NCBI GenBank assembly: GCA_014382805.1
Contig: JACNIZ010000251.1
Span: 1 to 33,076, forward strand
Source: Planctomycetota bacterium
GTDB taxonomy: Bacteria; Planctomycetota; UBA1135
Reading direction: 5' to 3'
Length of the DNA stretch: 33,076 nucleotides
In this document: piece by piece, positions 12,801 through 31,086 of the stretch
How the letters are laid out: the number at the start of each line of letters is the position of its first letter
Position numbering within the stretch: position 1 is the first letter of the stretch
Translations under genes and position numbers: made by a program
The notes under the pieces: generated by a model
Told to the model about the DNA's origin: nothing
Seen by the model: the letters and a program-made list of their open reading frames with translations, nothing else
The model's database searches: none

Positions 12801-14351
12801 ATGAAGTTTTTCGGTCTCATCACATTCGCCTTCTTGGCGTCGCATCTCCATGCCCAGCAGGGTCTTAGGGGGTTCGATCTGCACTTAGAGCTTGGTGGCG
12901 AGTTCACCAAAGAGAACTATGGCAAGGCGGTGAGCCCATTAGGGGACGTCAACGGCGACTTGGTGGACGATTTTTTAGTTGGCGCCGACTTCGCTAACGG
13001 CAACGGTTATTCGGAATCGGGCTCGGTTTTTCTGTACTCGGGTTCCGACGGCAGTGTGATTTACCGCCTGAATGGCGAGGCCGATGGCGACAAGTTCGGC
13101 GGCTCCATTTCCGACTCAGATGACATAGATGGCGACGGGATTCGCGATTTTATCGTCGGAGCGCGGCTTTCAAATACCGGATCCGCAGCCAAAGCTGGCC
13201 AAGCCCATGTTTATTCGGGAGCTACCGGCGACTTGATTTTCCGTTTCCAGGGCACGCTGACCAATGGCTTTTTTGGCATTGCAGTGGCCGCGGTGGGCGA
13301 TTGTGACCTCGACGGCGTTGCGGATTTCCTAGTCGGTTCACGCGGCTTGTTATCCGGCCCCGGCAAGGTATTTTTGTATTCAGGCGCCGACGGCTTGCTG
13401 ATCCGCCAAATCAACGGGACCAGCAGTGGTGACTCCTTCGGCGACGCGGTTTCCGCCATCGGCGACATCGATCAAGATGGTAGCGCGGATTTCCTGGTTG
13501 GGGCTCCTGGCATTAACAGTACTTACCTCTATTCCGGAAGTACCGGCAACCTGATTCGCTTGTTCAGCAGCTTTTCGTCGGGATCGGATGCTGGGTTTGC
13601 TGTGGCTCCCATCGACGACCTTAGCGGTGACGGCCTGCCCGACGTTTTGATCGGTGAACCATCGGCTAAAACAGTGCACATTTATGCTTCAAGCAGTGGC
13701 ATTTTTTTGGGTTCGATCATCGGCGGTTCGCAGCACGCGGAGTTCGGTTCTTCCGTAGTTTCGCCAGGCGACGTCAACCTAGATGGATATGCCGACATCC
13801 TGGTCGGCGCTTGGGATTCGATTCCTAGCGGTGGCGATAACACCGGTGCGGCCTTTTTGTATTCCTCTGCCGGCGGCTTCCTCCTGCAACAATTTAACGG
13901 TGACACTGACAACGGTAAATTTGGATCCAGCGTTGGATATGTTGGCGACCTCAATCGTGACAAGTTGCCTGATTTCGTGATTGGATCCCGTCACGGAGAC
14001 TTCCAGGGTGTCGTGCAAGCGGGGTACGTCGACGTTTACCTGACTCGGCATTACCTGAATCTAACCATTGATGGTCAAATTCCGGAGCCGCTATGGTTGA
14101 CTGCGAGGTATGCCAATCCTGGCGATCGAGTTGCTTTTTACTATGGCTTCCCAGGTACTTCCACCGGCAACTTTTTTGATTGCAATGGGGTGACCTTCGA
14201 CCTGGACATTCCACGCCTCAGCCGCATTTACCAAGCTGGCCTCAATGGCAAGGCCAACTTCTTAATCGCAGTGCCGCCGTCGGCCATCGGCCGCGTGGTG
14301 CAGGCTATGAACATGGATAACTGTGAAGTCAGTAATCCAGTCACCTTGTAG
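12801..14351 (+). CDS. Secreted FG-GAP repeat (integrin-alpha-like) propeller protein
   Basis: 516 aa from ATG 12801, with a signal peptide MKFFGLITFAFLASHLHAQ. Seven FG-GAP units follow, each combining an FG-like segment (KFGGSISDSDDI, FFGIAVAAVGDC, SFGDAVSAIGDI) with a calcium-binding loop DxDxDGxxDFLVG and a VYLYSG-type strand, which predicts a seven-bladed calcium-binding propeller. The last 100 residues or so (LNLTIDGQIPEPLWLTARY to SNPVTL) form a separate beta-domain whose ending resembles that of the exported protein at 18518-19519, probably a shared sorting or anchoring domain. It is an envelope or extracellular protein of unknown ligand. The stop codon directly abuts the stop of the convergent gene at 14352 with no intergenic base. 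Confidence 0.9.
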   Translation: MKFFGLITFAFLASHLHAQQGLRGFDLHLELGGEFTKENYGKAVSPLGDVNGDLVDDFLVGADFANGNGYSESGSVFLYSGSDGSVIYRLNGEADGDKFGGSISDSDDIDGDGIRDFIVGARLSNTGSAAKAGQAHVYSGATGDLIFRFQGTLTNGFFGIAVAAVGDCDLDGVADFLVGSRGLLSGPGKVFLYSGADGLLIRQINGTSSGDSFGDAVSAIGDIDQDGSADFLVGAPGINSTYLYSGSTGNLIRLFSSFSSGSDAGFAVAPIDDLSGDGLPDVLIGEPSAKTVHIYASSSGIFLGSIIGGSQHAEFGSSVVSPGDVNLDGYADILVGAWDSIPSGGDNTGAAFLYSSAGGFLLQQFNGDTDNGKFGSSVGYVGDLNRDKLPDFVIGSRHGDFQGVVQAGYVDVYLTRHYLNLTIDGQIPEPLWLTARYANPGDRVAFYYGFPGTSTGNFFDCNGVTFDLDIPRLSRIYQAGLNGKANFLIAVPPSAIGRVVQAMNMDNCEVSNPVTL

Positions 14352-15662
14352 TTAGTGCTGAACTTCGGCGCCTGACCCGGTTGCCATCGCTTCGAATTCC
14401 AGCGCCTGTTGGTTGAGGCCGACGCCGCGGAAAACCTTCGCCAAGAAACTGTAGTTGCGACTGCGCTTCGCCAAGCGCTGCCCGAACAGCAAAGCCGAGG
14501 CGTCGGTGGCCTTCGCTTCCATCGTCGTCGTCACGCCGACGTCTCGCAGCAAGTTTCCAACGGCGAGCTTGCCTTGGTAGATGACCTCCAAATTGCCGTG
14601 GGAGTCCAGCAGTAAACTGGTGGGTAGCGGCGTGCCCGTTGAGGTGCCAAGCACTTCGTAAAGCAGCCCATCCAGCAGCGCCAGGAAGCGTTCGTCGGTA
14701 TATCCGGCATGTTGCTCGAGCCCAAAGATTTTGATGCGCTCAAGGGCCTTGGCGTGCTTCTCCGGCGGGTCAGTGCTCAAGGCCACGATCTGCAGCCCGC
14801 GGCCGCCAATTTGCTTGGCGCGGCGTTGGAAGGCTTGGAATTCCTTCAGGCAGTTTGCGCAATCCAAGCCCCACAGGTTGATCAAAATCGGTCGCCCCGA
14901 CAGCTGACCGACGGTGCGATTGGGGTCGTCAAAGCTCGGAATCACGACGTCGCGCATCGAGATTTTTTCGATCAGGGGGATGCGCACCACCGAATTATTC
15001 TCGCGCGCCAGGGTAATCGGTACCAGTTTGGCCAAGTTTTTGGCAGTGCGCACTCGGGTCTGGGTTGCAGCACCGCTGCCTTGGATTAGGCGGTAGCAGC
15101 CGTCCACAGCGACATCCGGGAAGGTTTCGCTAGTGCCGTCTGGCCAAATGACCTTGACCTCTTTGATCGCGGTTGCGTCGCCTAGGCCGAAGTGCAAGCG
15201 CTTCGAGGATTGAGCCAAAAAGCTGTCGCCTGCATGCAGAGTACGGCGGAGCTGGCGGTCTACTAAGGTCACAAACACGCGTGCACCGATGGCGTCGCGA
15301 TTGCTTTGTGTGCCTTGTAGATCCAAAGCCAAGTAGTGACCACCGTTCTGATTTTGGTTGCGCATCAGGCGCACGCGTGGCGCGGTGCGGCTGCGCAGGA
15401 CTAGGTCCAATTGGCCATCGCCATCCCAATCGACCGTGCCAACGCCACGTGCGTCATCAGCGAAGTCTGCGCCGCCTAGGGAGGAGATGTCAGCGAAGGA
15501 TTTACCCGCCAAATTTAAGAACAACCGGTTTTCCTCGCGGCCGCTCCAAGATGCTCCTTGGTTGCGGGTCATCTCTTGGATGCTCGCCCAAGCTTGGCGG
15601 TAGGCGTCGGTGGCTTCAGTATCGGTGGGGGATTGCGACGTCACGCGTCGCCAGAAAAAACT
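14352..15662 (-). CDS. C-terminal half of CRTAC1 selenoprotein candidate: last FG-GAP unit, ASPIC/UnbV, redoxin
   Basis: The track shows this as an independent 430-aa ORF from GTG 15644, but it lies in exactly the same frame as the FG-GAP ORF at 15663-17477 and is separated from it only by TGA 15663-15665; the six codons between TGA and GTG encode SFFWRR. I read it as the continuation of one protein (residues 606-1041). It contains a final calcium-binding unit (VDWDGDGQLDLVL), an ASPIC/UnbV domain (IGARVFVTL to VIWPDGTSETF, about 726-799) and a TlpA/thioredoxin-like domain with LINLWGLDCANCLKEF (C873, C876) and a cis-Pro motif TPLPTS. Alone it has no signal peptide and no convincing start. 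The role is probably periplasmic or extracellular redox chemistry on or through a large propeller scaffold. Alternatives: true two-gene split, nonsense mutation, or sequence error. Confidence 0.85.
   Translation of the reverse strand, partial: SFFWRRVTSQSPTDTEATDAYRQAWASIQEMTRNQGASWSGREENRLFLNLAGKSFADISSLGGADFADDARGVGTVDWDGDGQLDLVLRSRTAPRVRLMRNQNQNGGHYLALDLQGTQSNRDAIGARVFVTLVDRQLRRTLHAGDSFLAQSSKRLHFGLGDATAIKEVKVIWPDGTSETFPDVAVDGCYRLIQGSGAATQTRVRTAKNLAKLVPITLARENNSVVRIPLIEKISMRDVVIPSFDDPNRTVGQLSGRPILINLWGLDCANCLKEFQAFQRRAKQIGGRGLQIVALSTDPPEKHAKALERIKIFGLEQHAGYTDERFLALLDGLLYEVLGTSTGTPLPTSLLLDSHGNLEVIYQGKLAVGNLLRDVGVTTTMEAKATDASALLFGQRLAKRSRNYSFLAKVFRGVGLNQQALEFEAMATGSGAEVQH
15635..15651 (-). 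promoter_or_regulatory. Bacterial SECIS-like hairpin downstream of the TGA
   Basis: In the mRNA the sequence GCGACG-CGUGA-CGUCGC forms a perfect 6-bp GC-rich stem with a 5-nt loop. The stem begins 12 nt and the loop 18 nt after the UGA, so 17 nt separate UGA and loop. The loop has G at its second position. General bacterial SECIS rules call for a short apical stem-loop about 16-37 nt after UGA with a G in the first two loop bases; this fits near the short end. It would recruit SelB-GTP-Sec-tRNA. The coding sequence here is GC-rich, so chance formation is possible. Confidence 0.55.
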
Positions 15663-15665
15663 TCA
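15663..15665 (-). other. In-frame TGA, candidate selenocysteine codon (Sec605)
   Basis: The minus-strand context is GAC GAC TTG TGA AGT TTT TTC TGG, reading DDL-U-SFFW. The frame is open and domain-bearing on both sides, and protein-like codons resume immediately after the TGA. A SECIS-like hairpin follows. No sel gene lies in the window, so the Sec assignment is inference. Confidence 0.65.
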
Positions 15666-17477
15666 CAAGTCGTCGGGGTCGGGCCCGGTCAAGAACCCGT
15701 TGGGCGCATAGATGTCGGCATAACCATCGTTGTTGAAATCGACGAATTTGGAACCCCACGACCAACCGCCGACGGAAATCCCCGCCGCCATGGTGACGTC
15801 GCTGAAAGTGCCGTCGCCATTATTGGACAACAGCGAATTGCCGCGGGCGTGGCGGCCGTAATGCTGGTGTACGTCTTTATTCTGGCCTTCCATAAACTGA
15901 TCGGTCTGCGGCACAATGCGCTGACCTGCTGACGAAAACATGTTGGTGATCAACAGATCCATATCGCCGTCCAAGTCAAAGTCAGCGGTACTCAAACCCA
16001 TGCCGGCAGCCATATCTTCGGCGCCAACTTCATACGCAACATCAGTAAATTTGCCGCCTTCATTGCGGTACAAATTGTTGGTGCCAAAATCATTCGCAAC
16101 GTAAAGATCGACGTCGCCATCGTCGTCAAAATCTTCCCAAATCGAAACCAAACTGAACTTGCTGTTGTTTTGGTCCAGCCCGACTTCGGCAGTTGCATTG
16201 GTGAACTTGCCGTAGCCATCGTTGCGCCAGTAAAAGTTCGACGCTCCGTTATTGGCATCGTGGTACGGCGTCGGCACGCCGCCCATAATTCCATTGCCGA
16301 CGTAGCGCGTTGCGTATAAATCCAAGTCGCCATCGTTGTCTGGGTCGCCTGCACTGATGGAATAAATGTCTTCCCAGCCGGTGCCCCGCAACGGCGTGAA
16401 ATCGCCAAATATGCCCTTGCCGCTGTTGTATGCAATCATGATGTTGGCGCCGATGGTGGCGGCCAAATCTTGATCTCCGTCGTTGTCCAAGTCGATCAGC
16501 AATGCGCTGCGAGTATTTTCCAGGAAATCAAGGTTGGAGCGCTTGGAGGCGTCGGTTGCGGTTCCGTCCAGGCTATGCAAGAACAATCGATTAGGCAGAC
16601 CGCCTTGTTGAGTGATGTACAAATCATCCAAGCCATCACCGTTGACGTCGCCGATCGCAAAACCTTGAGAGCCAATGAAGGACTGCCCGATCAGTCGATC
16701 CGTCTTCTTATGGTAGTCATCCACACCGCGTAGAAATTCGTTTTGCCAAAATGCGTTGTGGCCAAAAACGTGACTGGTGATTTCACCGAACAGCGCCTTG
16801 CGAGTACGGATCTCTTCGTAGGAAGTCAGCTCGATGGACTCCAGTAACAAGTCTTCGTCGGTTTCGCCGATCTGCCAATAAGTGGTCCATTCGCTGTTGG
16901 CCTGAAGAACCCCCGACGCCGTTTTCAAGGATAGGTGTAACAGCATGTCGCCGCGGAAGCGTTTGGGACCTTCAATCTTGATACGAACGAACTTGAAAAA
17001 CGGATGGACATGAGGGTCGTCGCCGAACGGTGCCCGTACCGATTTAGCCAGGGTCGAAAGCTGGCCCAAGCTCATTTGTTCCTGCGGGATATTGGTTGGA
17101 CGCCAAGCGTTGGTGACGCCATCGGAAAAAACTTGTTCGAGCTTGGCCGGGCGCAGAGGAGTAAGGGTGTGAAAGTTCGCGCTTAGATAGTGATCTAGTT
17201 CATCCTCGTGCTCGTTCTTTAAAAAATATGCAAGCAGAGCCTTCACCGGCTTTTTAGCGTTGCCATGCAAAACTTCGGAACGCCAGCCGTCGGTTGCGGC
17301 GTTGCGGCGTTCGAAGTTGTCCGTCACCCATTCGGGATAATCAATTTCAGCACTCTCCAGCAACTGGTCTGGATCCTTTGCCCCATCTTGCTGAGGGGGC
17401 GCGGGGGTGGAATCGCTCCAGGCGAAGACGGGGTGGGCACCTGCAAGAAAGGCGGCGAAAATAAGACAAGATCTCAT
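15663..17477 (-). CDS. N-terminal half of CRTAC1 selenoprotein candidate: signal peptide and FG-GAP/VCBS propeller
   Basis: I choose ATG 17477 (MRSCLIFAAFLAGAHPVFA, a clear signal peptide) over the track start at 17552. Residues 20-230 form a mixed region without a recognised motif, containing FVRIKIEGPKRFRGDMLLHL. From about residue 230 to 604 come FG-GAP/VCBS units with loops DVNGDGLDDLY, DLDNDGDQDL, DPDNDGDLDLY, DFDDDGDVDLY, DFDLDGDMDLL and DFNNDGYADIY. It stops at TGA 15663 directly after NGFLTGPDPDDL, in the middle of a CRTAC1 architecture, whereas the other UnbV-bearing proteins in this window continue through to UnbV. The reading frame continues open for 436 codons beyond the TGA. The complete gene would be 14352..17477, 1041 aa with Sec605. 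It is divergent from the gene at 17648. Confidence 0.9.
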   Translation of the reverse strand: MRSCLIFAAFLAGAHPVFAWSDSTPAPPQQDGAKDPDQLLESAEIDYPEWVTDNFERRNAATDGWRSEVLHGNAKKPVKALLAYFLKNEHEDELDHYLSANFHTLTPLRPAKLEQVFSDGVTNAWRPTNIPQEQMSLGQLSTLAKSVRAPFGDDPHVHPFFKFVRIKIEGPKRFRGDMLLHLSLKTASGVLQANSEWTTYWQIGETDEDLLLESIELTSYEEIRTRKALFGEITSHVFGHNAFWQNEFLRGVDDYHKKTDRLIGQSFIGSQGFAIGDVNGDGLDDLYITQQGGLPNRLFLHSLDGTATDASKRSNLDFLENTRSALLIDLDNDGDQDLAATIGANIMIAYNSGKGIFGDFTPLRGTGWEDIYSISAGDPDNDGDLDLYATRYVGNGIMGGVPTPYHDANNGASNFYWRNDGYGKFTNATAEVGLDQNNSKFSLVSIWEDFDDDGDVDLYVANDFGTNNLYRNEGGKFTDVAYEVGAEDMAAGMGLSTADFDLDGDMDLLITNMFSSAGQRIVPQTDQFMEGQNKDVHQHYGRHARGNSLLSNNGDGTFSDVTMAAGISVGGWSWGSKFVDFNNDGYADIYAPNGFLTGPDPDDL

Positions 17478-17647
17478 TAGCTTTGGATCGGAATGGCTGT
17501 GCAACAGGCTGGGGTGGCGCTGGGGTTGGGTGCTCAGGAGAGGGAAGGGCATTGGCTGCCGCTGATGGATGGGGGAGTAGGGCCTTTGGACTCTAATGGG
17601 TTTATTACTTTAGCAGGTAAATCCTATGAATTCGCTAGTCTATTGCC

Positions 17648-20161: not shown

Positions 20162-22735
20162 TTAACCATCCTTGGAGCTCTCAAACAGGGCCTTGTATTC
20201 TGCATCCAGGTTGGACGATCGATCGCTTAATGTACGCCAACGATGGAGCAGCGAAGCTGGGTCTTGATCGTGTTGTACCACCGTCATCGCTGAGCCGGCG
20301 GCAGTGTCACCTTCGTTCGAACTGGATTTACCAGCTTGGCCGCCTGAATCTAATGCAAGCTTGAATGCCACCTCCAAGTGTTGCTGAGCTTGCTCACGTT
20401 CTCCTTGCTTGAAAGCAATCCCACCTCTGTACCAACTTGCGGCAATCGACTTCGAATTGTGAGCAAAAGCGTCGGCGAAGTATTGCTCGGCTTCGTCTAG
20501 CTGGCCCTCAAGTAACGCCACAATCCCTAGCTGCACGGAGGGCTGACTTTCTTCCTTATTGATGCTCCGGCAGCGCAGAAAGGCCTCTTTTGCGGCGGCC
20601 AGGTCGTCCAAAATTGGGTCGCCACCGGGTAAGCGCAACTTGCCAATTTGCATCCAACCACGACTGCCGTTGGGCTGGTAAAGGACCAGCTCTTCCAACA
20701 CGGCAAGGGCTTCGACCTCGCGCTTTTGCTCGCTGAGTATGTTGCCTAAGTAGTAAAGGCTGTCCCAATGTCCAGGCCAAAGTTTTAATGCTTTGCGATA
20801 GCTTTCTTCGGCTGCTGCCAGGTCGCCGTCAATCCGCTGGCGCGACGCTTGGCGCAAGGTGGCGACGAACAATCGTTTTTGTTCAATGGATAGGCTGGGT
20901 TGCGCTTGTGCCAGCAGTTTTCCCGGCAAGGCCTCAATCCGCGGCTCGCTACCACGTTCCCAGGTGACCAATCGATTAGCTGCAAAAGGTCCAGCGCTAT
21001 CAGTGGTACCATCCGGCCAACGCACTACGACGGAATCAATTTTTTCGGCCGCGCCTAGGCCGAAACTGAGTTCGCCGACTGCGTGTTGAGACAGATAAGA
21101 TCCCTGAGCGCCGACTTGATCAATCATGCCTTGGCCATCCCAGTGAATAATCACCGAAGCGCCGATGGCAAACCGGTTGCCGTCGGGCTGGCGCAGGCGG
21201 AGTAAAACCGAACCACCAGCTTGCTTGCTGTCGTTGCGCAGTAAATGAGCCGTCTCGCCATGGCCGATTACGATGATGTCAAGATCGCCATCCAAGTCGA
21301 AATCAAAGTGGGCGCCGCCGCGACCAACGCGTTTTTCGGTAAAGAAGGAGCCTGCAGCAGCGCCTAATTCAAAAAATCCACGATCGGCTCCAGCGTTCCA
21401 AAACAACTGCGCCCGTTGCGGGACCAGCTTGGTGGCGTCATCAGCTTCGGGTATGGTGCTGCCGTTCACTACAAATAGGTCGCGTTTGCCGTCGTTATCG
21501 AAATCAAAAAACCCGGTGGCCCACCCGACCATGTCCAAGGCGATTTGACCCAAGCCGAAACGGTCGGCTTCATCCATAAAAAGCAGTTTTGGTTCTTTGC
21601 CTTCGCCCGCCATTTCACTGCTGACGTTTTCATACAGGGCATTTTCTTGTGCCACCCAATGGGTGATGAATAAGTCCAGGTCTTGGTCGAGGTCAAAGTC
21701 GTTTACGGCCATACCCATTGCGCCGCGGTAGTCACCAAGCAGCGCTTCGCTGGTACGGTTTTCAAAGGTGCCGTCGCCTCGATTCAGGTACAAAGTGTTA
21801 TCCGAGACATCGTTGGCTATGTAAAGGTCCAACCAGCCGTCATTGTTTAGATCGGTAAACGTAGCTCCCAAACCACGTCCATTTTCCTCTAGTACACCGG
21901 CAAATTCGGCAACCTCTTCGAAGTTTCCGTCGCCTCGATTGCGCAACAATAGGTTGCGCTCACCGTCAAACACAGAAGGATTGAGCAGCGCTGGAATTGA
22001 GGTTCCATATTGGCGCATCGATGAATTTGCTCGACCGGCGTCCTTGCGGAATTTTACATAACCGCAAATGTAGATGTCCAGATCTCCATCGCGGTCGTAG
22101 TCGCCGGTTGCAAGCCCAGTCCAGAAGCCGACGAATTCGCCAATGCCGGATTCCTTACTTATTTCGGTGAACTTTAAGCCACCATCATTGCGGAACAAAT
22201 GACAGCCGCCATAACTGGTCACCATTAAATCCAGGTCGGCGTCACCGTCGATATCCACCCAGGCAGCGCCATTAGCCAAAGCCAACAAGCCCAAGCCGGA
22301 GGATTCGGTGATGTCCTCAAAGCTGCCATTGCCAAGGTTGTGGAACATACGGCAGGTTGCACCGCCATTTATCCAACCAAGTTCGGCTTCGGACATTGGG
22401 CCAGCCAAATTGGCTAAAAATACATCAGTCCAACCGTCGCCGTCGGCATCGCCAAGGGCAACGCCAGAACCCATGTCTTCCGGCAAACGGCCGCTGCGCG
22501 TGGCCGGGAAATGGTTGAAAATTAAGCCCGCCTCCGAGGTCACCTCAGTAAATGAAACCGGCGGATGATCAGCGGGCAGAGCGCGGCCGAGGGTATCGGT
22601 AATACCCTCCAATTGCTCCCCTGGTACATAGGCTTCACCGCTGTTTTTCCAAAGCAACACCGAAATGACACCCCCCAAAAGGAGGGTGCCAAAGATGGCG
22701 AGTCGCCGTAAGGTTTTTCGTTTCCAGATTTGCAT
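20162..22735 (-). CDS. Membrane-anchored CRTAC1-type FG-GAP/UnbV protein with C-terminal TPR domain
   Basis: 857 aa from ATG 22735. A basic N-terminus and one helix (LAIFGTLLLGGVISVLLW) act as an uncleaved anchor. Residues 60-510 hold VCBS/FG-GAP units with loops DADGDGWTDVF, DIDGDADLDL, DYDRDGDLDIY, DLNNDGWLDLY, DFDLDQDLDLF, DFDNDGKRDLF and DFDLDGDLDII. UnbV follows (IGASVIIHW to VVRWPDGTTDSA). Residues 600-800 are TPR helices (AEESYRKALKLWPGHWDSLYYLG, AEQYFADAFAHNSKSIAAS). It is the last gene of the six-gene operon, 12 bp after the cytochrome gene, so probably partners it at the outer face of the membrane. It has no redoxin domain and no internal TGA, unlike the CRTAC1 gene at 14352-17477. 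Confidence 0.92.
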   Translation of the reverse strand: MQIWKRKTLRRLAIFGTLLLGGVISVLLWKNSGEAYVPGEQLEGITDTLGRALPADHPPVSFTEVTSEAGLIFNHFPATRSGRLPEDMGSGVALGDADGDGWTDVFLANLAGPMSEAELGWINGGATCRMFHNLGNGSFEDITESSGLGLLALANGAAWVDIDGDADLDLMVTSYGGCHLFRNDGGLKFTEISKESGIGEFVGFWTGLATGDYDRDGDLDIYICGYVKFRKDAGRANSSMRQYGTSIPALLNPSVFDGERNLLLRNRGDGNFEEVAEFAGVLEENGRGLGATFTDLNNDGWLDLYIANDVSDNTLYLNRGDGTFENRTSEALLGDYRGAMGMAVNDFDLDQDLDLFITHWVAQENALYENVSSEMAGEGKEPKLLFMDEADRFGLGQIALDMVGWATGFFDFDNDGKRDLFVVNGSTIPEADDATKLVPQRAQLFWNAGADRGFFELGAAAGSFFTEKRVGRGGAHFDFDLDGDLDIIVIGHGETAHLLRNDSKQAGGSVLLRLRQPDGNRFAIGASVIIHWDGQGMIDQVGAQGSYLSQHAVGELSFGLGAAEKIDSVVVRWPDGTTDSAGPFAANRLVTWERGSEPRIEALPGKLLAQAQPSLSIEQKRLFVATLRQASRQRIDGDLAAAEESYRKALKLWPGHWDSLYYLGNILSEQKREVEALAVLEELVLYQPNGSRGWMQIGKLRLPGGDPILDDLAAAKEAFLRCRSINKEESQPSVQLGIVALLEGQLDEAEQYFADAFAHNSKSIAASWYRGGIAFKQGEREQAQQHLEVAFKLALDSGGQAGKSSSNEGDTAAGSAMTVVQHDQDPASLLHRWRTLSDRSSNLDAEYKALFESSKDG

Positions 22736-22747
22736 TCCAGGCGTCAG

Positions 22748-24832
22748 TTAATTGCCAATTCGAATCGAGGCTTCTGCGGTAGACATCACTGTGATGGGGG
22801 AGGTCAAGCCAGATTCGGGGAAGGCGAAGTTGAGCAGGTATTGATCAAACTTGCGGTAGTTCAGTTTGGCGCGCACATTCAGAGTGCCGGTGGCGGCTGC
22901 AGGAACGGAAATCACCACTTCTTCGTTGGTCGGCGGCGGTGCTGGGTCACCCACTCCTGGACATGCAATGTCGTATTTCGCCATTTCTTCCGCCCCGGGG
23001 AACATCGAGCGCTTAAATCGGACGCCGACCATTTCCCACAAATTGTGGCGATCGATCAAATTGCCGTAGCGGTCCACTGGCTCAGCTTTCATCATGAATG
23101 AACCAGTTTCTACAAAATGCTGATCGTCCACCTTGCCGGAATGGAAGATGATGTTGCCTTGCTCATCAATCACCTCTAGCTCCACCCAAGCTTGAATGAT
23201 GTCTAATGGCCCAGTAGGGAAATCGTGACCGACTTTATTGTTCAGTAAGTGGACGCGCAGATCGAAATTTTCGCCGGCTTTTACCGAAGCAGGAGCTTCG
23301 ATTTCAATCGGAACCGCAGGACCGTCATTCCAGCGATCACTTATCTCTGGGATCGGGAATTCTCCGCGCAGCCATTTTTCGGTTAACTCAGCATGGTGTT
23401 CCGCCCCGGGCAGTTTGTGCAACAAAGGCATGTACTGATTGGCGCCAAGGAAGCGATGGCTACGGTGTTTACCGTCGTCGCCACTACGATTGAAGTCCGA
23501 TAAATCGCCCGCGGCAGGGTCCTTAGAGTTTGCAACCAGCGGCATGTGACACTCACGGCATTCAAGGGTTTTCTCTTGATTGTCCTCATTGTGCCAACGG
23601 CTAGATTTCCAGTTGTCGTATTGGTTTTGCAATTGCACCCAGCCAACTTGATTGACCTCTTCGTCGATGAACTGCTTATGACAAGCAGCGCAAAACTCGG
23701 GCGCTTTAAACATGCGACGGGACAAAGTCTCTACGTGCTTCTTTGGATAAGCCCGAATCAAGAAGTCACTCACAAATTTTGCCGCTGGACCTTCACCGAG
23801 TTCACCGAGGTAGCGCTCTGGCTGCGACATCAAGTAATTGGCATTGCCCTTGACGTCGGTTTCTTCGATGGCGTGGCAGGATAGGCAAGAAATTCCTTCT
23901 TGATAGCCCGCAAGGTCGCTTAGATTTTCGACGCCAATAAACTTAGTGCCCGAGAACAGCGAGATAGGATCATGGCAACCGGCACAATATCGAGTGGAGT
24001 CGGCGCCATTTTGGTCGGCCATGACGCTTTGAATCTTTTGGAAGCCGGCATCCATGGAAGCGTAGCGGTGGGCGCTAGGTTGCCATTCTTCGTAAATTTC
24101 TTCATGGCAACCGCTGGTGCCGCAGCCCTCCGAGCCGGCTAGCGATGCCGAATCATAGGCCCCGCCGGTCGACGTCTTGGCTAGGCTTGGAGCAAACGGA
24201 CCTTTGCCGTCGTAGGGGTCCAAATTGTATTCACTCGGGAATTGATTGACGAAAGTAGTCGGTGTAATCAAAAAAGCCAATACTCCAGTAAATGCCAATC
24301 CGCCAATGCCAAAAATTGCGGCTACGTTGCGATGGCTGCCAATGCCGCCCGCTACTTGCGCAGCATGGGCGACGTCGGTTTTACGTCGATTGCGCATAGC
24401 ACTAGTCAAGACGTGATGGCCGGCGAAAAATAGAACTCCGAATGTGGTGACGATATGAGTGTTTACCCAAAAAGGTGTCACCTTGGTACCCAGTACGGCC
24501 TCCCAAGTTAGAACCATGCCGGATATCACACAGGCAATTAACATTAAACCGCCTACCCAACCTGTGAACTTGGATTGGGTCAGTGGGTACTTCCAGTAGA
24601 CCTTTAAGTGGCTAATGCTGTATGCCAGAAACGGCAGCAGAAACAAAACGCCGCCAAGCGTATGAAGCACTACAGAATGCTGGTTGAAAACGCTAAACGG
24701 AAGCAAGAATATGCACAGTCCGCTCAATGTTAAGTAAAGGGAAAAACCAGAAACGGTTCGCGCTAGATTACTGCGCCACCCTTTCAGGCTTTGTTTTTCC
24801 CAGTGATGGATGCTGGAGTCGTCCTTCTTCAT
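22748..24832 (-). CDS. Fused cytochrome b-like membrane domain and multiheme cytochrome c
   Basis: 694 aa from ATG 24832. Residues 25-195 hold five hydrophobic helices with paired histidines (HTLGGVLFLLPFLAYSISH, WVNTHIVTTFGVLFFAGHH), resembling DUF4405/cytochrome b561-type di-heme domains. The periplasmic part has four CxxCH sites, CAGCH (283), CLSCH (316), CAACH (381) and CRECH (425), preceded by CGTSGCH (237), a CX4CH variant in the position of a first heme. Downstream histidines (SAHRYASM, SSRWHNED) could be distal ligands, as in cytochrome c554-like families. The C-terminal 220 residues are a beta-rich domain without heme motifs. Predicted role: take electrons from quinol through heme b to periplasmic hemes, or the reverse. 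It sits in the operon between two CRTAC1/UnbV genes, 12 bp from one and about 70 bp from the other. Confidence 0.9.
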   Translation of the reverse strand: MKKDDSSIHHWEKQSLKGWRSNLARTVSGFSLYLTLSGLCIFLLPFSVFNQHSVVLHTLGGVLFLLPFLAYSISHLKVYWKYPLTQSKFTGWVGGLMLIACVISGMVLTWEAVLGTKVTPFWVNTHIVTTFGVLFFAGHHVLTSAMRNRRKTDVAHAAQVAGGIGSHRNVAAIFGIGGLAFTGVLAFLITPTTFVNQFPSEYNLDPYDGKGPFAPSLAKTSTGGAYDSASLAGSEGCGTSGCHEEIYEEWQPSAHRYASMDAGFQKIQSVMADQNGADSTRYCAGCHDPISLFSGTKFIGVENLSDLAGYQEGISCLSCHAIEETDVKGNANYLMSQPERYLGELGEGPAAKFVSDFLIRAYPKKHVETLSRRMFKAPEFCAACHKQFIDEEVNQVGWVQLQNQYDNWKSSRWHNEDNQEKTLECRECHMPLVANSKDPAAGDLSDFNRSGDDGKHRSHRFLGANQYMPLLHKLPGAEHHAELTEKWLRGEFPIPEISDRWNDGPAVPIEIEAPASVKAGENFDLRVHLLNNKVGHDFPTGPLDIIQAWVELEVIDEQGNIIFHSGKVDDQHFVETGSFMMKAEPVDRYGNLIDRHNLWEMVGVRFKRSMFPGAEEMAKYDIACPGVGDPAPPPTNEEVVISVPAAATGTLNVRAKLNYRKFDQYLLNFAFPESGLTSPITVMSTAEASIRIGN

Positions 24833-24902: not shown

Positions 24903-27900
24903 TCATTTTTCAACCTTAGGCGGGTAGTTAAGCATTCCGTGGAATGGCAACGGTTCGATGGTGTCCGGGAAGGCCGTGTAAAGATCCATGTCCTTGCAAT
25001 AGCCATCCGAGTGGAGAATTAATGTTCGGCTCCAGTTTTCTGGCAAAGAAGGGAGCTGGCTGGCATCAAATTCAAGTGCTACTTCTTCGCCGCGTGCCAG
25101 GATTACAAATTGATCGTCTACAGTTTTCAGTAGATCGCGCACGTCGCCATGGTTGGTGAATGAACCGCGTAGGTTTTTAAATGGCACACCGAGGTCTAAA
25201 CGATGGTAATCATAAACCGTTGGATTGGATCCGTCGGGGGAGTACTCGCGTGGATAACCGAGGGTGCGTAGTTCAGCTACCACGGGCATGAGTTGATGCT
25301 GGATTAGAATGTTTTCTGAAATGTCGACACCAGCGTAAATTTGGTCCCAGAACACTTCCATGTTGGTGCGAATGCGTAGGCGGCCATCTTTTTGCAGCGG
25401 CAACTTGGAGATATCCACAGTCATCATGCGTGGCAACCCGGCTGGGAAGCCCATCTCTGGAGATGCTGGTATCCAGCCACCCTTGCCGTCGGGCAGTTCT
25501 ATCCATGGGGAACGCATGGTGATTCCGGCTTGCCACGCGGCATAGTTGACGTGCGAGTAGGTATATTCCACCCAACCGTGTAAATACAGAATGAGTGGTT
25601 TCGTTACGTCTAAATTCGACAAACGATCACCGAAGTCGAGCTCAATCCAATGATCCCGTGCGTAACCTACGAAGCGTGAATCCACCGGCGGCTGCGCGTA
25701 CTGCCGATCCACATGACGCAGGGTTTGCAGAAGATTGACGTTGCTATCGCTACGGGCCGACTGTGGGAAGATTGGGTTCGCCACTGCACCCGGTTTTCCG
25801 GTCGGGAACGGTGGACTGCCTGTAAAGCGTTCATCGGGGTAGATCTCCCAGTTCGCTGGATGATCGATGACCTTTAGATAAAGCTGGTCCAGGTATGTGA
25901 CTTCTTCTAATGGCTCAGCAACGCGCAATAAATAGCGGTCGTCCTTTAGGCTCACTAACTGCGGAGGAATGCGCACATCTTCGGTGGGGTCCGGTGGAGC
26001 ATATTCGCCGGGTGACATGAAAAATCCCATTCCGCCGACGCCAAGGAAATCGGTGACGTAGGCAAATCGTGCGCCGTCCCAGCAGAACAAAATCGGGCAG
26101 GAGGACGGCTTGCGCTTGATTTTATTAATTTGCCATAGCTGCCCGGCGGGCACTTCCAATTCGCTTTGCAGAACCGCGTCTAGCCAGCTGAGGCGAATGT
26201 AATCCGCAGCGGTTGCGTCGCCTAATCCAAAATGCAACTGGCGTGGAGTACTGCCTAGATAGCCGCTAGTGGAATGCATGCGGCGCAGTTGGGTGCGCAG
26301 CCCAGTTTTCATTTCAACCTGTAGATCGACCGCTTCGGGTTCGGCCCAAAAGCCATTTTCACTTTTTTGCTGCGTAGGGAGGATTTTTAACCAGTGGCGG
26401 TCAGGGTGGGGAGGGCTGCTCCAAAGCTGGGGCACGGCTCCAGCGCGAGCGATGAGCAGGTCTAGGCTGCCGTCGTTGTTAAAATCGGCACTGACTGCGC
26501 CGCGAGCTTGCGGCTGTAGCGTGCGGTCACCGAGTGCTATCGCTGGATGGAAACCGCCGCCGTCGCTCTTGTAGAGCAGAGTATGGCCAAATTCATAATC
26601 ACCGCGATTAGCATCACTAGCTAAATCGGATCCTTCCGGTCCTCTGGTTCCACTTGCAAAGCCGGCATCCAAAAGCAGCAAATCTAAATCGCCATCTAAG
26701 TCGTAATCGCCGAGCAAGGCGCCACTGGAACCTGGATAGGCATTCAGGCTTTGAGAAAGTGCGGACTGGTCAGTGAAGCTGGCTGGTGAAGATTGCAGGA
26801 ACAGTTTTGGCGAAGCGGGGCCGCGCAATACGAGCAGATCCTCCAAGCCGTTTTGATCAATATCACCACAGACTATGCCGTAGCTGTCTCCTGCATTTGC
26901 CAGTTCAGGAAATTGCCCATTCGCTGGTCGATAAATCCCGACGCGGTCATTGAGGAATATTTGATTGTCGCTGGCTTGATGCAAAAAAATTAAATCTAGA
27001 TCGCGGTCGTCATCCAGGTCGATGAGTGCAACGCCAAGAGTATGGCGCTCTCCGCCATCTAGCCCCGCTTCGGCGGCAACGTCTATAAAGCTGCCGTCAC
27101 CGTTATTGCGCCACAAAGAATTTGCGACGCCGCCATTACTGCGGTCGCCGCTATCACTGCGGTCACTGCCGTCACTGCCGTCACACCGCTCATAGCGAGC
27201 AACGAGTAAATCCAAATCATTGTCGTGATCGATGTCCGCCCAGGCCGCGCCGACGCTAATGCAATCACCGCCAGCCACGCCGCAAGCAGCAGTGATATCG
27301 GTGAAGTTGCCAGTGCCGTCGTTCTGATAAAAACGATCAGGACCAAAGCAAGTCAGGAAAATGTCGGGGTCACCATCCTTGTCAAAGTCGCCAAAAAATC
27401 CGCCGATGGCATCGCGTCCGTCAATGCCACAGTTCATCTTGGCCGTGAATACGCCATCGTGATTGAGGTACAGCACGCCACTATCGTCGACCCCGCAACC
27501 AGCTAAAAAGACATCCAAGTCACGGTCGCCATCGACGTCGGCGACGGCAACGCCGGGGCCAAAGTTACTGGCATGAAAGGTAGACTGAGGAATCCCAGTT
27601 TCAGATGAATTCAAAACACCTGGCCAGTTTGGCAAACCATAAGCCGGAAGGTTTAGCCTGCTGGCTGCGGCGACATCTGCGAAAGCCGGAAATGTGGTTT
27701 CTTCCAGTTCTGGCTGCGGCCGATCAAAGGCTCGAATCACGTCGGCATAGCGTCCCATTTCGCCATACTTCATGCCAGCTTCCACGCCGGCATTTGCATC
27801 CTTCAAAGTCCGGAAGCGATCCAATAACTCACTTGCGCGTTGCGGTTCACCCGCCTTGCGCAAGATGGCCGCTAAACGATAACAAGCGGATTGATGGTGC

Positions 27901-28418
27901 GGCAGTTTGGCCAGAGTTTGCTCAAGGTGAAAGCGCGCTTGTTGGACGTCGCTATCTTGCGCCAGGATGGCTAGTTGATAATGCGCATCAGGATCTCCGG
28001 GGGTGGCTTTCAAAACGCGTTCAAACAAAACTTTGGCTTCGTCGCCGCGTTCGTTATGACGTAATAGCACTCCCAGCGAATAAAGCGCATACGGATTCTC
28101 TGGCTCATGCTTCGCCACCCATTGCAGCTCTGCTTCGGCACGAACCAACGCCGCCTGGTCGTTGAGATTTAGTAGTGCGATGCCCAGATTGAAATGGCCA
28201 GGCGCCCATCCTGGGGCTAGGTTGACCACATCTTCAAACGCCACTACTGCCGCGGCCGGTTGAAATCGTTCCATTAGCGCGATACCACGATTAAAATCTT
28301 GGGCGACCGAATCTAAGTGCTCAGTCGGAATGGAAGAAGATGGCGTGGTATCCGTGCCGCAGCCCATCCACAACCCACCCGCACACAGCGCAATGAAAAA
28401 CCAGGATTTGTTGTTCAT
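24903..28418 (-). CDS. Lipoprotein with TPR, VCBS/FG-GAP, UnbV and large C-terminal domain
   Basis: 1171 aa from ATG 28418, which overlaps the nitrilase stop in an ATGA. The N-terminus ends in LWMGC, a lipobox-like site. Residues 35-215 are TPR helices (FNRGIALMERFQPAAAVVAFED, ALYSLGVLLRHNERGDEA). Residues 240-660 hold VCBS loops (DVDGDRDLDVF, DFDKDGDPDIF, DIDHDNDLDLL, DLDDDRDLDLI, DYDLDGDLDLL, DFNNDGSLDLL), then UnbV (LRRMHSTSGYLGSTPRQLHFG). The last 400 residues or so begin CPILFCWDGARFAYVTDFLG and contain LILYLHGWVEYTYSHVNYAA, a conserved-looking module often seen behind UnbV; its activity is unknown. A glycine/serine/aspartate stretch (SDGSDRSDSGDRSNGG) comes from a 9-bp repeat and may be variable. 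Probably anchored to a membrane facing outward. Confidence 0.92.
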   Translation of the reverse strand: MNNKSWFFIALCAGGLWMGCGTDTTPSSSIPTEHLDSVAQDFNRGIALMERFQPAAAVVAFEDVVNLAPGWAPGHFNLGIALLNLNDQAALVRAEAELQWVAKHEPENPYALYSLGVLLRHNERGDEAKVLFERVLKATPGDPDAHYQLAILAQDSDVQQARFHLEQTLAKLPHHQSACYRLAAILRKAGEPQRASELLDRFRTLKDANAGVEAGMKYGEMGRYADVIRAFDRPQPELEETTFPAFADVAAASRLNLPAYGLPNWPGVLNSSETGIPQSTFHASNFGPGVAVADVDGDRDLDVFLAGCGVDDSGVLYLNHDGVFTAKMNCGIDGRDAIGGFFGDFDKDGDPDIFLTCFGPDRFYQNDGTGNFTDITAACGVAGGDCISVGAAWADIDHDNDLDLLVARYERCDGSDGSDRSDSGDRSNGGVANSLWRNNGDGSFIDVAAEAGLDGGERHTLGVALIDLDDDRDLDLIFLHQASDNQIFLNDRVGIYRPANGQFPELANAGDSYGIVCGDIDQNGLEDLLVLRGPASPKLFLQSSPASFTDQSALSQSLNAYPGSSGALLGDYDLDGDLDLLLLDAGFASGTRGPEGSDLASDANRGDYEFGHTLLYKSDGGGFHPAIALGDRTLQPQARGAVSADFNNDGSLDLLIARAGAVPQLWSSPPHPDRHWLKILPTQQKSENGFWAEPEAVDLQVEMKTGLRTQLRRMHSTSGYLGSTPRQLHFGLGDATAADYIRLSWLDAVLQSELEVPAGQLWQINKIKRKPSSCPILFCWDGARFAYVTDFLGVGGMGFFMSPGEYAPPDPTEDVRIPPQLVSLKDDRYLLRVAEPLEEVTYLDQLYLKVIDHPANWEIYPDERFTGSPPFPTGKPGAVANPIFPQSARSDSNVNLLQTLRHVDRQYAQPPVDSRFVGYARDHWIELDFGDRLSNLDVTKPLILYLHGWVEYTYSHVNYAAWQAGITMRSPWIELPDGKGGWIPASPEMGFPAGLPRMMTVDISKLPLQKDGRLRIRTNMEVFWDQIYAGVDISENILIQHQLMPVVAELRTLGYPREYSPDGSNPTVYDYHRLDLGVPFKNLRGSFTNHGDVRDLLKTVDDQFVILARGEEVALEFDASQLPSLPENWSRTLILHSDGYCKDMDLYTAFPDTIEPLPFHGMLNYPPKVEK
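27136..27183 (-). repeat. Imperfect 9-bp tandem repeat inside the TPR-VCBS gene
   Basis: On the plus strand the unit TCACTGCSG occurs three times in a row at 27154-27180, with a diverged unit and TTACTGCGG before it. In the protein this is a flexible SDGSDRSDSGDRSNGG loop between two VCBS strands. Units are multiples of three, so copy changes would keep frame. It is short and may simply be a linker. Confidence 0.75.
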
Positions 28419-29433: not shown

Positions 29434-31086
29434 TCAGTTCCGAGTCACAGTCAGAACTTTGTTGGTTGCGACACCTTTGATCTTCTGCTTGAAACCGTCG
29501 CTCCAAGTCACGTTAAGGTTGGCGGGTTGCGCATTGGATGGCAATGCGAAGTGCGCGATCAATTCATTTGCTGCCAGAAAACTGGTGCCACTAGCGATCC
29601 AACGTGATTGCACCTGATCGCCGCTTTCTAGCACGACCTTGCTGCCGATTCCAAACCGATCGTGGCCTTTGCGCAAATCCTGCAACCTTACGATCAGCCA
29701 ATTGCCGCCGTCGCGATCATTGCGCAGTACCCGAATCGGGCCGTTGCGCTCGCCGACGACTATATCGATGTCACCGTCACCGTCTAAATCGCCAAATGCG
29801 GCGGTTCGGTCGCAGTGTGGTTGCGCCAACCATTTTCCGGCAGTGCCAGCTTCAGCGCGTTGAAACTTATTGCCGGTGCGTTGGTAAAGCACCGGTACTT
29901 GGTCGTAATCCCACTTCTGTTCTAGGCAGATTTCGCGTGGGTAAATGTGGCCATTGAAAAAGAGCAGGTCCTCGTCGGCGTCGTGATCAAAATCGTAAAA
30001 CCCGGCGGCCCAACTTAGGAACGGACGGCTATCCGTGTGCAGGCCGTAAGACATGGTTCGATCTTCAAAAAATGAATTGCCCTGATTCAGGTGCAAAGTA
30101 TTGGTGTCGTACATGAAGTTGGTGGTGAATAAATCGGCGAGCTGGTTGCCGTCTACATCCGCCACAGCAATGCCCATAGTTGCCTGACCGGCGCCTTCCT
30201 CATTAAAGGCGACTCCGCATGGAATACCGATCTCTTCGAAATTTCCGTCACCATTGCCGTGGTATAGGAAGCTAGCCATCGAATCGTTGCCGACGTAAAT
30301 ATCCTGATGTCCGTCTTCATCAAAATCCAGGATTACCGCTCCCAATCCCCAAGCCGCTTGACGTTTCCGAATTCCGCTAGTTTCACTGATGTCGCGGAAA
30401 TGCCCCATGCCATCATTTTCATAGAGTACGTCGGCCACCTTGGGCAAGCCCATTGGACCAGCAAAAACGGCTGCTCCAAGGAATTCTCGCATCGGCGACG
30501 GTAAGCCCGCGTCAAGCTTGCAGTAATTCACCACGTAAAGGTCGAGGTCGCCGTCGCCATCAATATCGCCGCAGGCCGCTCCAGTACTCCATGCATCGCC
30601 GCTGATCCCTGCGCTTGCGGTGACGTCCAAAAAACCACCTTGGCCAGTATTTTGCAGCAAAGCATTTTGGCCATAACAACTAACAAATAAATCCGGCCAG
30701 CCATCGCCATTAAAATCGCCTTGAGCCACGCCATATCCCCAACCTGCAAAGGTCAGACCAGCAGCAGTAGTGGCGTCGGAAAATCGCAGCTTGCCGAGGT
30801 TTTCGTAAAGGCGGCAGCCGGGGCCATTGCGAGGACTTGAAATGGTTGCCCCATTCGGCACGAATACGTCGACGTCGCCATCTTGGTCGTAATCAATGAG
30901 CGCGATTCCAGTTCCTTTGACCTCGAGTAAGTGTGTCGCTGGGTCATTACCATTTGTGACGATCATGGTGATTCCACTTTGGGCAGTTACGTCAGTGAAA
31001 TGTAGGCCAGCATGATTGGCGGAAGGTTCTGAATTCCCACACCCGCTAAGAAAAAGAGCAGACACTAGGTAAAAGAGGGGCTTCAT
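29434..31086 (-). CDS. CRTAC1-type FG-GAP/UnbV lipoprotein
   Basis: 550 aa from ATG 31086. The signal peptide ends in a good lipobox, LFLSGCGNS. The mature protein starts FTDVTAQSGITM, the usual CRTAC1 opening, and holds VCBS loops DYDQDGDVDVF, DFNGDGWPDLF, DIDGDGDLDLY, DFDEDGHQDIY, DVDGNQLADLF, DFDHDADEDLL and DLDGDGDIDIV. It finishes with UnbV (GIGSKVVLESGDQVQSRW to NVTWSDGFKQ). This is the shortest and most standard CRTAC1 member here, with no TPR or redoxin extension. It starts 4 bp after the TPR lipoprotein gene, and the nitrilase gene follows. A role as a calcium-dependent surface binding or scaffold protein is inferred from the fold only. Confidence 0.93.
   Translation of the reverse strand: MKPLFYLVSALFLSGCGNSEPSANHAGLHFTDVTAQSGITMIVTNGNDPATHLLEVKGTGIALIDYDQDGDVDVFVPNGATISSPRNGPGCRLYENLGKLRFSDATTAAGLTFAGWGYGVAQGDFNGDGWPDLFVSCYGQNALLQNTGQGGFLDVTASAGISGDAWSTGAACGDIDGDGDLDLYVVNYCKLDAGLPSPMREFLGAAVFAGPMGLPKVADVLYENDGMGHFRDISETSGIRKRQAAWGLGAVILDFDEDGHQDIYVGNDSMASFLYHGNGDGNFEEIGIPCGVAFNEEGAGQATMGIAVADVDGNQLADLFTTNFMYDTNTLHLNQGNSFFEDRTMSYGLHTDSRPFLSWAAGFYDFDHDADEDLLFFNGHIYPREICLEQKWDYDQVPVLYQRTGNKFQRAEAGTAGKWLAQPHCDRTAAFGDLDGDGDIDIVVGERNGPIRVLRNDRDGGNWLIVRLQDLRKGHDRFGIGSKVVLESGDQVQSRWIASGTSFLAANELIAHFALPSNAQPANLNVTWSDGFKQKIKGVATNKVLTVTRN

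Follow-up and report, generated by a model that had tools for sequence, protein, structure and literature searches.

Proteins of the CRTAC1/ASPIC-UnbV group (9etn) carry an UnbV domain behind an FG-GAP propeller. Known bSECIS selenoproteins, such as SelD and formate dehydrogenase (PMC13188914, Table 1), combine a UGA codon, a stem-loop that follows it immediately within the coding sequence and the SelA/SelB/SelD/tRNA-Sec machinery. TlpA/ResA oxidoreductases (1jfu, 1st9) have a CxxC motif. A 2026 review listed 119 prokaryotic selenoprotein families and subfamilies (PMC13188914), and selenoprotein genes have been reported from Planctomycetes (PMC4807772). The gene analyzed here resembles each of these systems. 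Compared to CRTAC1/ASPIC-UnbV proteins, its family has, in addition, an N-terminal domain, a C-terminal TlpA-like domain and a conserved insert that very likely carries a selenocysteine (Sec). Compared to known bSECIS selenoproteins, it is a large protein (at least 1000 aa) and Cys counterparts are almost absent. Lastly, the C-terminal domain matches TlpA/ResA by sequence and by fold and has the CxxC, but it is fused behind a propeller and an UnbV domain and scores far below the NCBIfam cut-off for TlpA.

Reading frame and domain architecture

The window (i.e., the whole stretch of DNA analyzed, 33,076 nucleotides) carries on its minus strand two ORFs, 15663..17552 (629 aa) and 14352..15644 (430 aa), that have a common frame whose sole break is the TGA at 15663-15665. 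The earlier note had claimed that only this TGA splits the two ORFs, that the TGA is residue 605 of a joined chain of 1041 aa (from the ATG at 17477) and that gene callers split such proteins. All three claims held, standard calling giving two ORFs. The read-through frame would have 1066 codons if counted from the ATG at 17552, which places the UGA site at residue 630 instead of 605 and the CANC motif at residues 898-901 instead of 873-876. In the second ORF, the GTG taken as "start" (15644) codes for the V of WRRV and lies inside a hairpin. Three TGAs of the window are flanked on both sides by at least 90 open codons. Since the TGA at 15663-15665 is one of only three such codons and joins the two halves of a single domain architecture, it represents more than a chance occurrence. 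The features of the gene are listed in Table 1.

Table 1. Features of the read-through gene (positions in the window)
Feature	Position	Strand	Evidence
Whole gene, very likely encoding a selenoprotein	14352..17477	minus	1041 codons from ATG 17477; open frame with one TGA; homologs collinear over ~1000 aa
Probable signal peptide MRSCLIFAAFLAGAHPVFA	17418..17477	minus	Read from the sequence, without signal-peptide predictor
FG-GAP propeller repeats upstream of the UGA (approximate extent)	15693..16664	minus	Pfam FG-GAP_3, 3e-36, five stretches; fold match to CRTAC1 (9etn)
UGA codon, very likely read as selenocysteine (Sec605/Sec630)	15663..15665	minus	TGA in 144/144 stop-bearing homologs; Sec machinery in the genome
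SECIS hairpin GCGACG-CGUGA-CGUCGC	15635..15651	minus	Compensatory changes; synonymous-codon null; slid controls; model limits; MFE -9.6
UnbV/ASPIC domain	15102..15293	minus	Pfam PF07593, 3.9e-20
TlpA/ResA-like thioredoxin-fold domain	14586..14915	minus	Pfam AhpC-TSA, 2.1e-9; TlpA 1jfu, 2e-15 (family profile)
CANC redox motif, proposed Sec partner	14850..14861	minus	116/126 Sec members vs. 1/43 non-Sec members

The encoded protein displays, in order, an N-terminal domain without any Pfam match, FG-GAP repeats, the TGA, an UnbV domain and an AhpC-TSA/TlpA-like domain carrying CANC; it has few other cysteines. The putative Sec belongs to a conserved DDL-U-SFFWRxV insert that precedes the UnbV domain. 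AlphaFold2, run with 39 homologs on the read-through chain minus its first 43 residues, gave a confident one-chain model (mean pLDDT 92.8, pTM 0.93). The best fold match of this model in the PDB is murine CRTAC1 (9etn, E 1.4e-22, TM-score 0.72 by target length), which is also the best profile match (2.9e-27); ResA and TlpA, found further down the list of fold matches, correspond to the C-terminal domain. The protein meets the criteria of the CRTAC1/UnbV family (FG-GAP and UnbV over the Pfam cut-offs, CRTAC1-like fold). Since it scores only 38.6 bits with the TlpA equivalog NF047696 (curated cut-off: 230 bits), its C-terminal domain was filed as TlpA-like and not as TlpA. Some members of the family additionally carry TPR repeats.

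Other genes of the window encode related domains. On the plus strand, an FG-GAP protein gene (12801-14352, ending at 14351) is located tail to tail with the read-through gene, whose stop codon ends at 14352. Between 20162 and 31086, on the minus strand, long ORFs with CRTAC1-like FG-GAP repeats are found at 20162-22735, 24903-28418 and 29434-31086, and the ORF located among them at 22748-24832 (minus strand) has several CxxCH haem-binding motifs (all translations read by eye).

Conservation of the UGA codon and of its hairpin

Relatives of the protein were found in 128 of the 154 genomes of the window's class (E ≤1e-25) and in 86 of 392 genomes sampled evenly from the phylum (1e-40). The family has two copies in the window's genome and several per genome in relatives. 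It is a large family present throughout the phylum, which is probably Planctomycetota. The critical column was read in 211 aligned places; Met entries and some others, which are alignments to other propeller blades, were ignored. A stop codon is found at this column in 144 members and is always TGA, never TAA or TAG. For example, the homolog from Planctomycetota bacterium isolate NAT19 (L017) keeps the TGA at 59% identity. The selection acting on both sides of the UGA is similarly purifying, with dN/dS of 0.06-0.25 upstream and 0.08-0.23 downstream.

The other members have a sense codon at this column: E (n = 19), A (n = 13), Q (n = 4), D (n = 3), N (n = 1), Cys only once (L134) and a few others. 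Replacement of Sec by E, A, Q or D is unusual, Cys being its usual stand-in, and the single Cys is a point against the selenoprotein reading, even if a selenoprotein can do without Cys homologs. A search with this Cys homolog did not retrieve any sense-codon group beyond those already read or neighbors from the same genera, although the new loci were not aligned. The sense-codon members are single unbroken ORFs of ~1000 aa or longer, never two genes, and therefore the two halves found in the window correspond to one chain. They sit mainly in two clades, where both the hairpin and the CxxC are lost too, and are likely members that have lost the selenium function.

Some individual copies deserve mention. 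The second copy of the window's genome (L081, G000:C49:4000-7133), cut off by a contig end, has the same TGA and a perfect hairpin. In L154 (G140:C861), a Cys precedes the Sec position (DC-U-SVFW), which could form a C-U pair. L084 (G002:C60:43367-44380) has one in-frame TAG besides the usual TGA and could be a decaying copy or an assembly error.

The hairpin located directly downstream of the UGA has a 6-bp stem and a 5-nt loop (15641-15645) that starts 18 nt after the UGA, leaving 17 nt between them. Its sequence differs between homologs (GCGGCA-GGUCG-UGUCGC, GCGCCA-CGUGG-UGGCGU, GCGUCA-GGUCG-UGACGC and others). In the class set, all six pairs are formed in 93 of the 95 TGA genes, compared to 2.5% expected after synonymous codon shuffling with the peptide kept fixed, and a perfect hairpin is found in only one of the 41 sense-codon relatives, which sit at their null mean. 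In the phylum set, the six pairs are formed in 128 of the 142 sequences, compared to 0-2 after shifting one of the arms by 1-3 bases. The exceptions mostly carry their hairpin in a different register, with up to 9-11 bp. The frozen codon choice is confined to the stem: TCG accounts for 112 codons at position +9 (115 Ser), whereas Ser at +11 uses several forms. Published limits for bSECIS (PMC13188914) are a loop of 3-9 nt with a G in its first two places, a stem of 4-16 bp, a distance of 16-37 nt after the UGA and an MFE of at most -7.5; the hairpin meets all of them (5-nt loop with a G in second place, 6 bp, 17 nt, -9.6 kcal/mol). Folding of the single sequence with various flanks did not give significant stability (z 0.8 to -0.4): the signal shows only across homologs. 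Among divergent paralogs, L204, L207, L209, L210, L212 and L234 keep the UGA and their hairpin is offset in register, its stem reaching up to 9 bp (L212).

Selenocysteine machinery

At 84.6% completeness, the window's genome contains a tRNA-Sec gene (selC, 72.9 bits for a cut-off of 47) as well as selA, selB and selD, all over their cut-offs. Its selD gene (L049, G000:C76:1211-2137, minus strand) has itself an in-frame UGA (SCSG-U-AAK) and, behind it, a hairpin whose loop is GGUU; judged by the same comparative criteria, this well-known selenoprotein also uses UGA for Sec in this genome. As selB is nearly universal in the class (139 of 154 genomes), its co-occurrence with the family is uninformative at this level and the comparison was repeated phylum-wide. 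There, selB was found in 79 of the 86 genomes carrying the family compared to 157 of the 306 genomes devoid of it (p 4e-13) and, when only genomes at least 90% complete are considered, in 41 of 42 compared to 84 of 174 (p 3e-10). These tallies were made by hand from two listings and were not corrected for genome relatedness. Seven genomes bearing the family have no selB match, and most of them are incomplete.

The earlier note had read the UGA as selenocysteine and had listed what would refute this reading: lack of selABCD, a sequence error, homologs encoded as two genes, or homologs with neither Cys nor TGA at this column. The first three do not apply, since all four genes are present, 144 TGAs recurring at this position in distinct genes and assemblies rule out an error, and homologs without TGA have one continuous ORF. 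The fourth applies in part, as shown by the sense residues given above. The reading itself held, being supported by the homologs, the hairpin and the machinery. It is thus very likely that this UGA encodes selenocysteine and that the gene is a selenoprotein gene, but this relies on comparative genomics and there is no chemical proof of selenium.

Proposed function and alternative explanations

Among the members with a complete 3′ end, the thioredoxin-fold CxxC is present in 116 of the 126 Sec members but in only one of the 43 non-Sec members, which mostly retain the thioredoxin-fold domain without its cysteines. In a tree built without the Sec and CxxC columns, three changes of Sec were found, two of them with CxxC moving the same way, which is not significant. 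A Fisher test of the association (p 6e-29) was set aside because it is pseudo-replicated, independent contrasts amounting to three pairs of which two are concordant. L236 (G130:C59), a lone member with a Ser at the site, keeps its CxxC and is an exception to the link between Sec and CxxC.

The ribosome very likely reads the UGA at 15663-15665 as selenocysteine, its insertion being directed by the SECIS hairpin (15635-15651) together with SelA, SelB, SelD and tRNA-Sec. The product is then a single exported chain, export being inferred from the sequence. In the mechanism that we propose, the Sec carried by the propeller insert may act as a nucleophile towards a substrate located outside the cytoplasm (peroxide, disulfide or similar), while the oxidised selenium may be reduced or resolved by the CxxC belonging to this chain; both steps are inferred. 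The partnership of Sec with C873/C876, already suggested by the earlier note, gains support from the distribution of CxxC, although few independent events sustain it. We slightly favor such a relay within one chain, but it remains an inference that relies on only two or three independent losses, and the distance between Sec and CxxC has not been measured. A bolder reading, for which arguments seem evenly balanced, is that of phylum-wide, paralog-rich exported propeller selenoproteins with Sec outside the thioredoxin motif and a self-contained CxxC relay, whose loss leads to non-redox E/A/Q/D forms and almost never to Cys.

The alternative that survives best is that Sec has no functional tie to the thioredoxin domain and acts, for example, as a metal ligand or as a redox residue relying on an external thiol; its joint loss with CxxC would then merely point to lineages where the protein as a whole took on another function. 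The number of independent contrasts is too low to establish a coupling, and some Sec members have no CxxC: five that have the thioredoxin domain lack the motif and four short ones (L199, L205, L211 and L212) stop before this domain. Against it, CxxC is kept in most Sec members and nearly always lost in non-Sec members, even though most of these keep the domain. We consider this alternative a little less convincing than the relay, without being able to dismiss it. Returning to the codon itself, the UGA could be read through as another amino acid (e.g., Trp), the hairpin being a readthrough element and not a SECIS. The lack of direct chemistry leaves room for this, but it is very improbable given the full Sec machinery of the genome, the fit of the hairpin with bSECIS in loop, stem, spacing and energy, the association of the family with selB and the presence of E, A, Q, D, N or Cys, and not Trp, in sense-codon members. 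Finally, a genuine termination codon, implying two genes, a pseudogene or a sequencing error, agrees with the two ORFs given by standard gene calling but is all but ruled out by the 144 TGAs found at this single position, with an intact frame and purifying selection before and after the codon, by the single ORF of sense-codon homologs and by a second ORF that starts inside the hairpin and whose product would have no export signal.

The selenoprotein reading being retained, the family appears to be new. None of the 119 entries of Table 1 of PMC13188914 is an FG-GAP, UnbV or CRTAC1 family (supplementary tables and RefSeq were outside the scope of this search). NCBIfam release 20, searched with the window's protein and eight divergent members, gave no selenoprotein model but only generic thioredoxin-fold, TPR and similar models, below cut-offs. 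A full-text literature search combining selenoprotein or selenocysteine with FG-GAP, UnbV or ASPIC returned no paper, and matches obtained with CRTAC1 were medical papers on unrelated subjects (judged by title). The family is thus likely new, being absent from the selenoprotein catalogue and curated models searched, RefSeq and supplementary tables excepted; an earlier sighting among the Planctomycetes candidates of PMC4807772, whose S9 table was outside the search, is possible.

Overall, this work adds a large family of very likely selenoproteins whose genes are cut in two by standard gene calling and, given the near absence of Cys homologs, would mostly escape search methods based on Cys. It also offers a testable redox chemistry for the UnbV/CRTAC1 proteins, which are poorly understood. 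Furthermore, the Sec and non-Sec clades constitute a natural test of the role of Sec in a protein where Cys seems to be no replacement.
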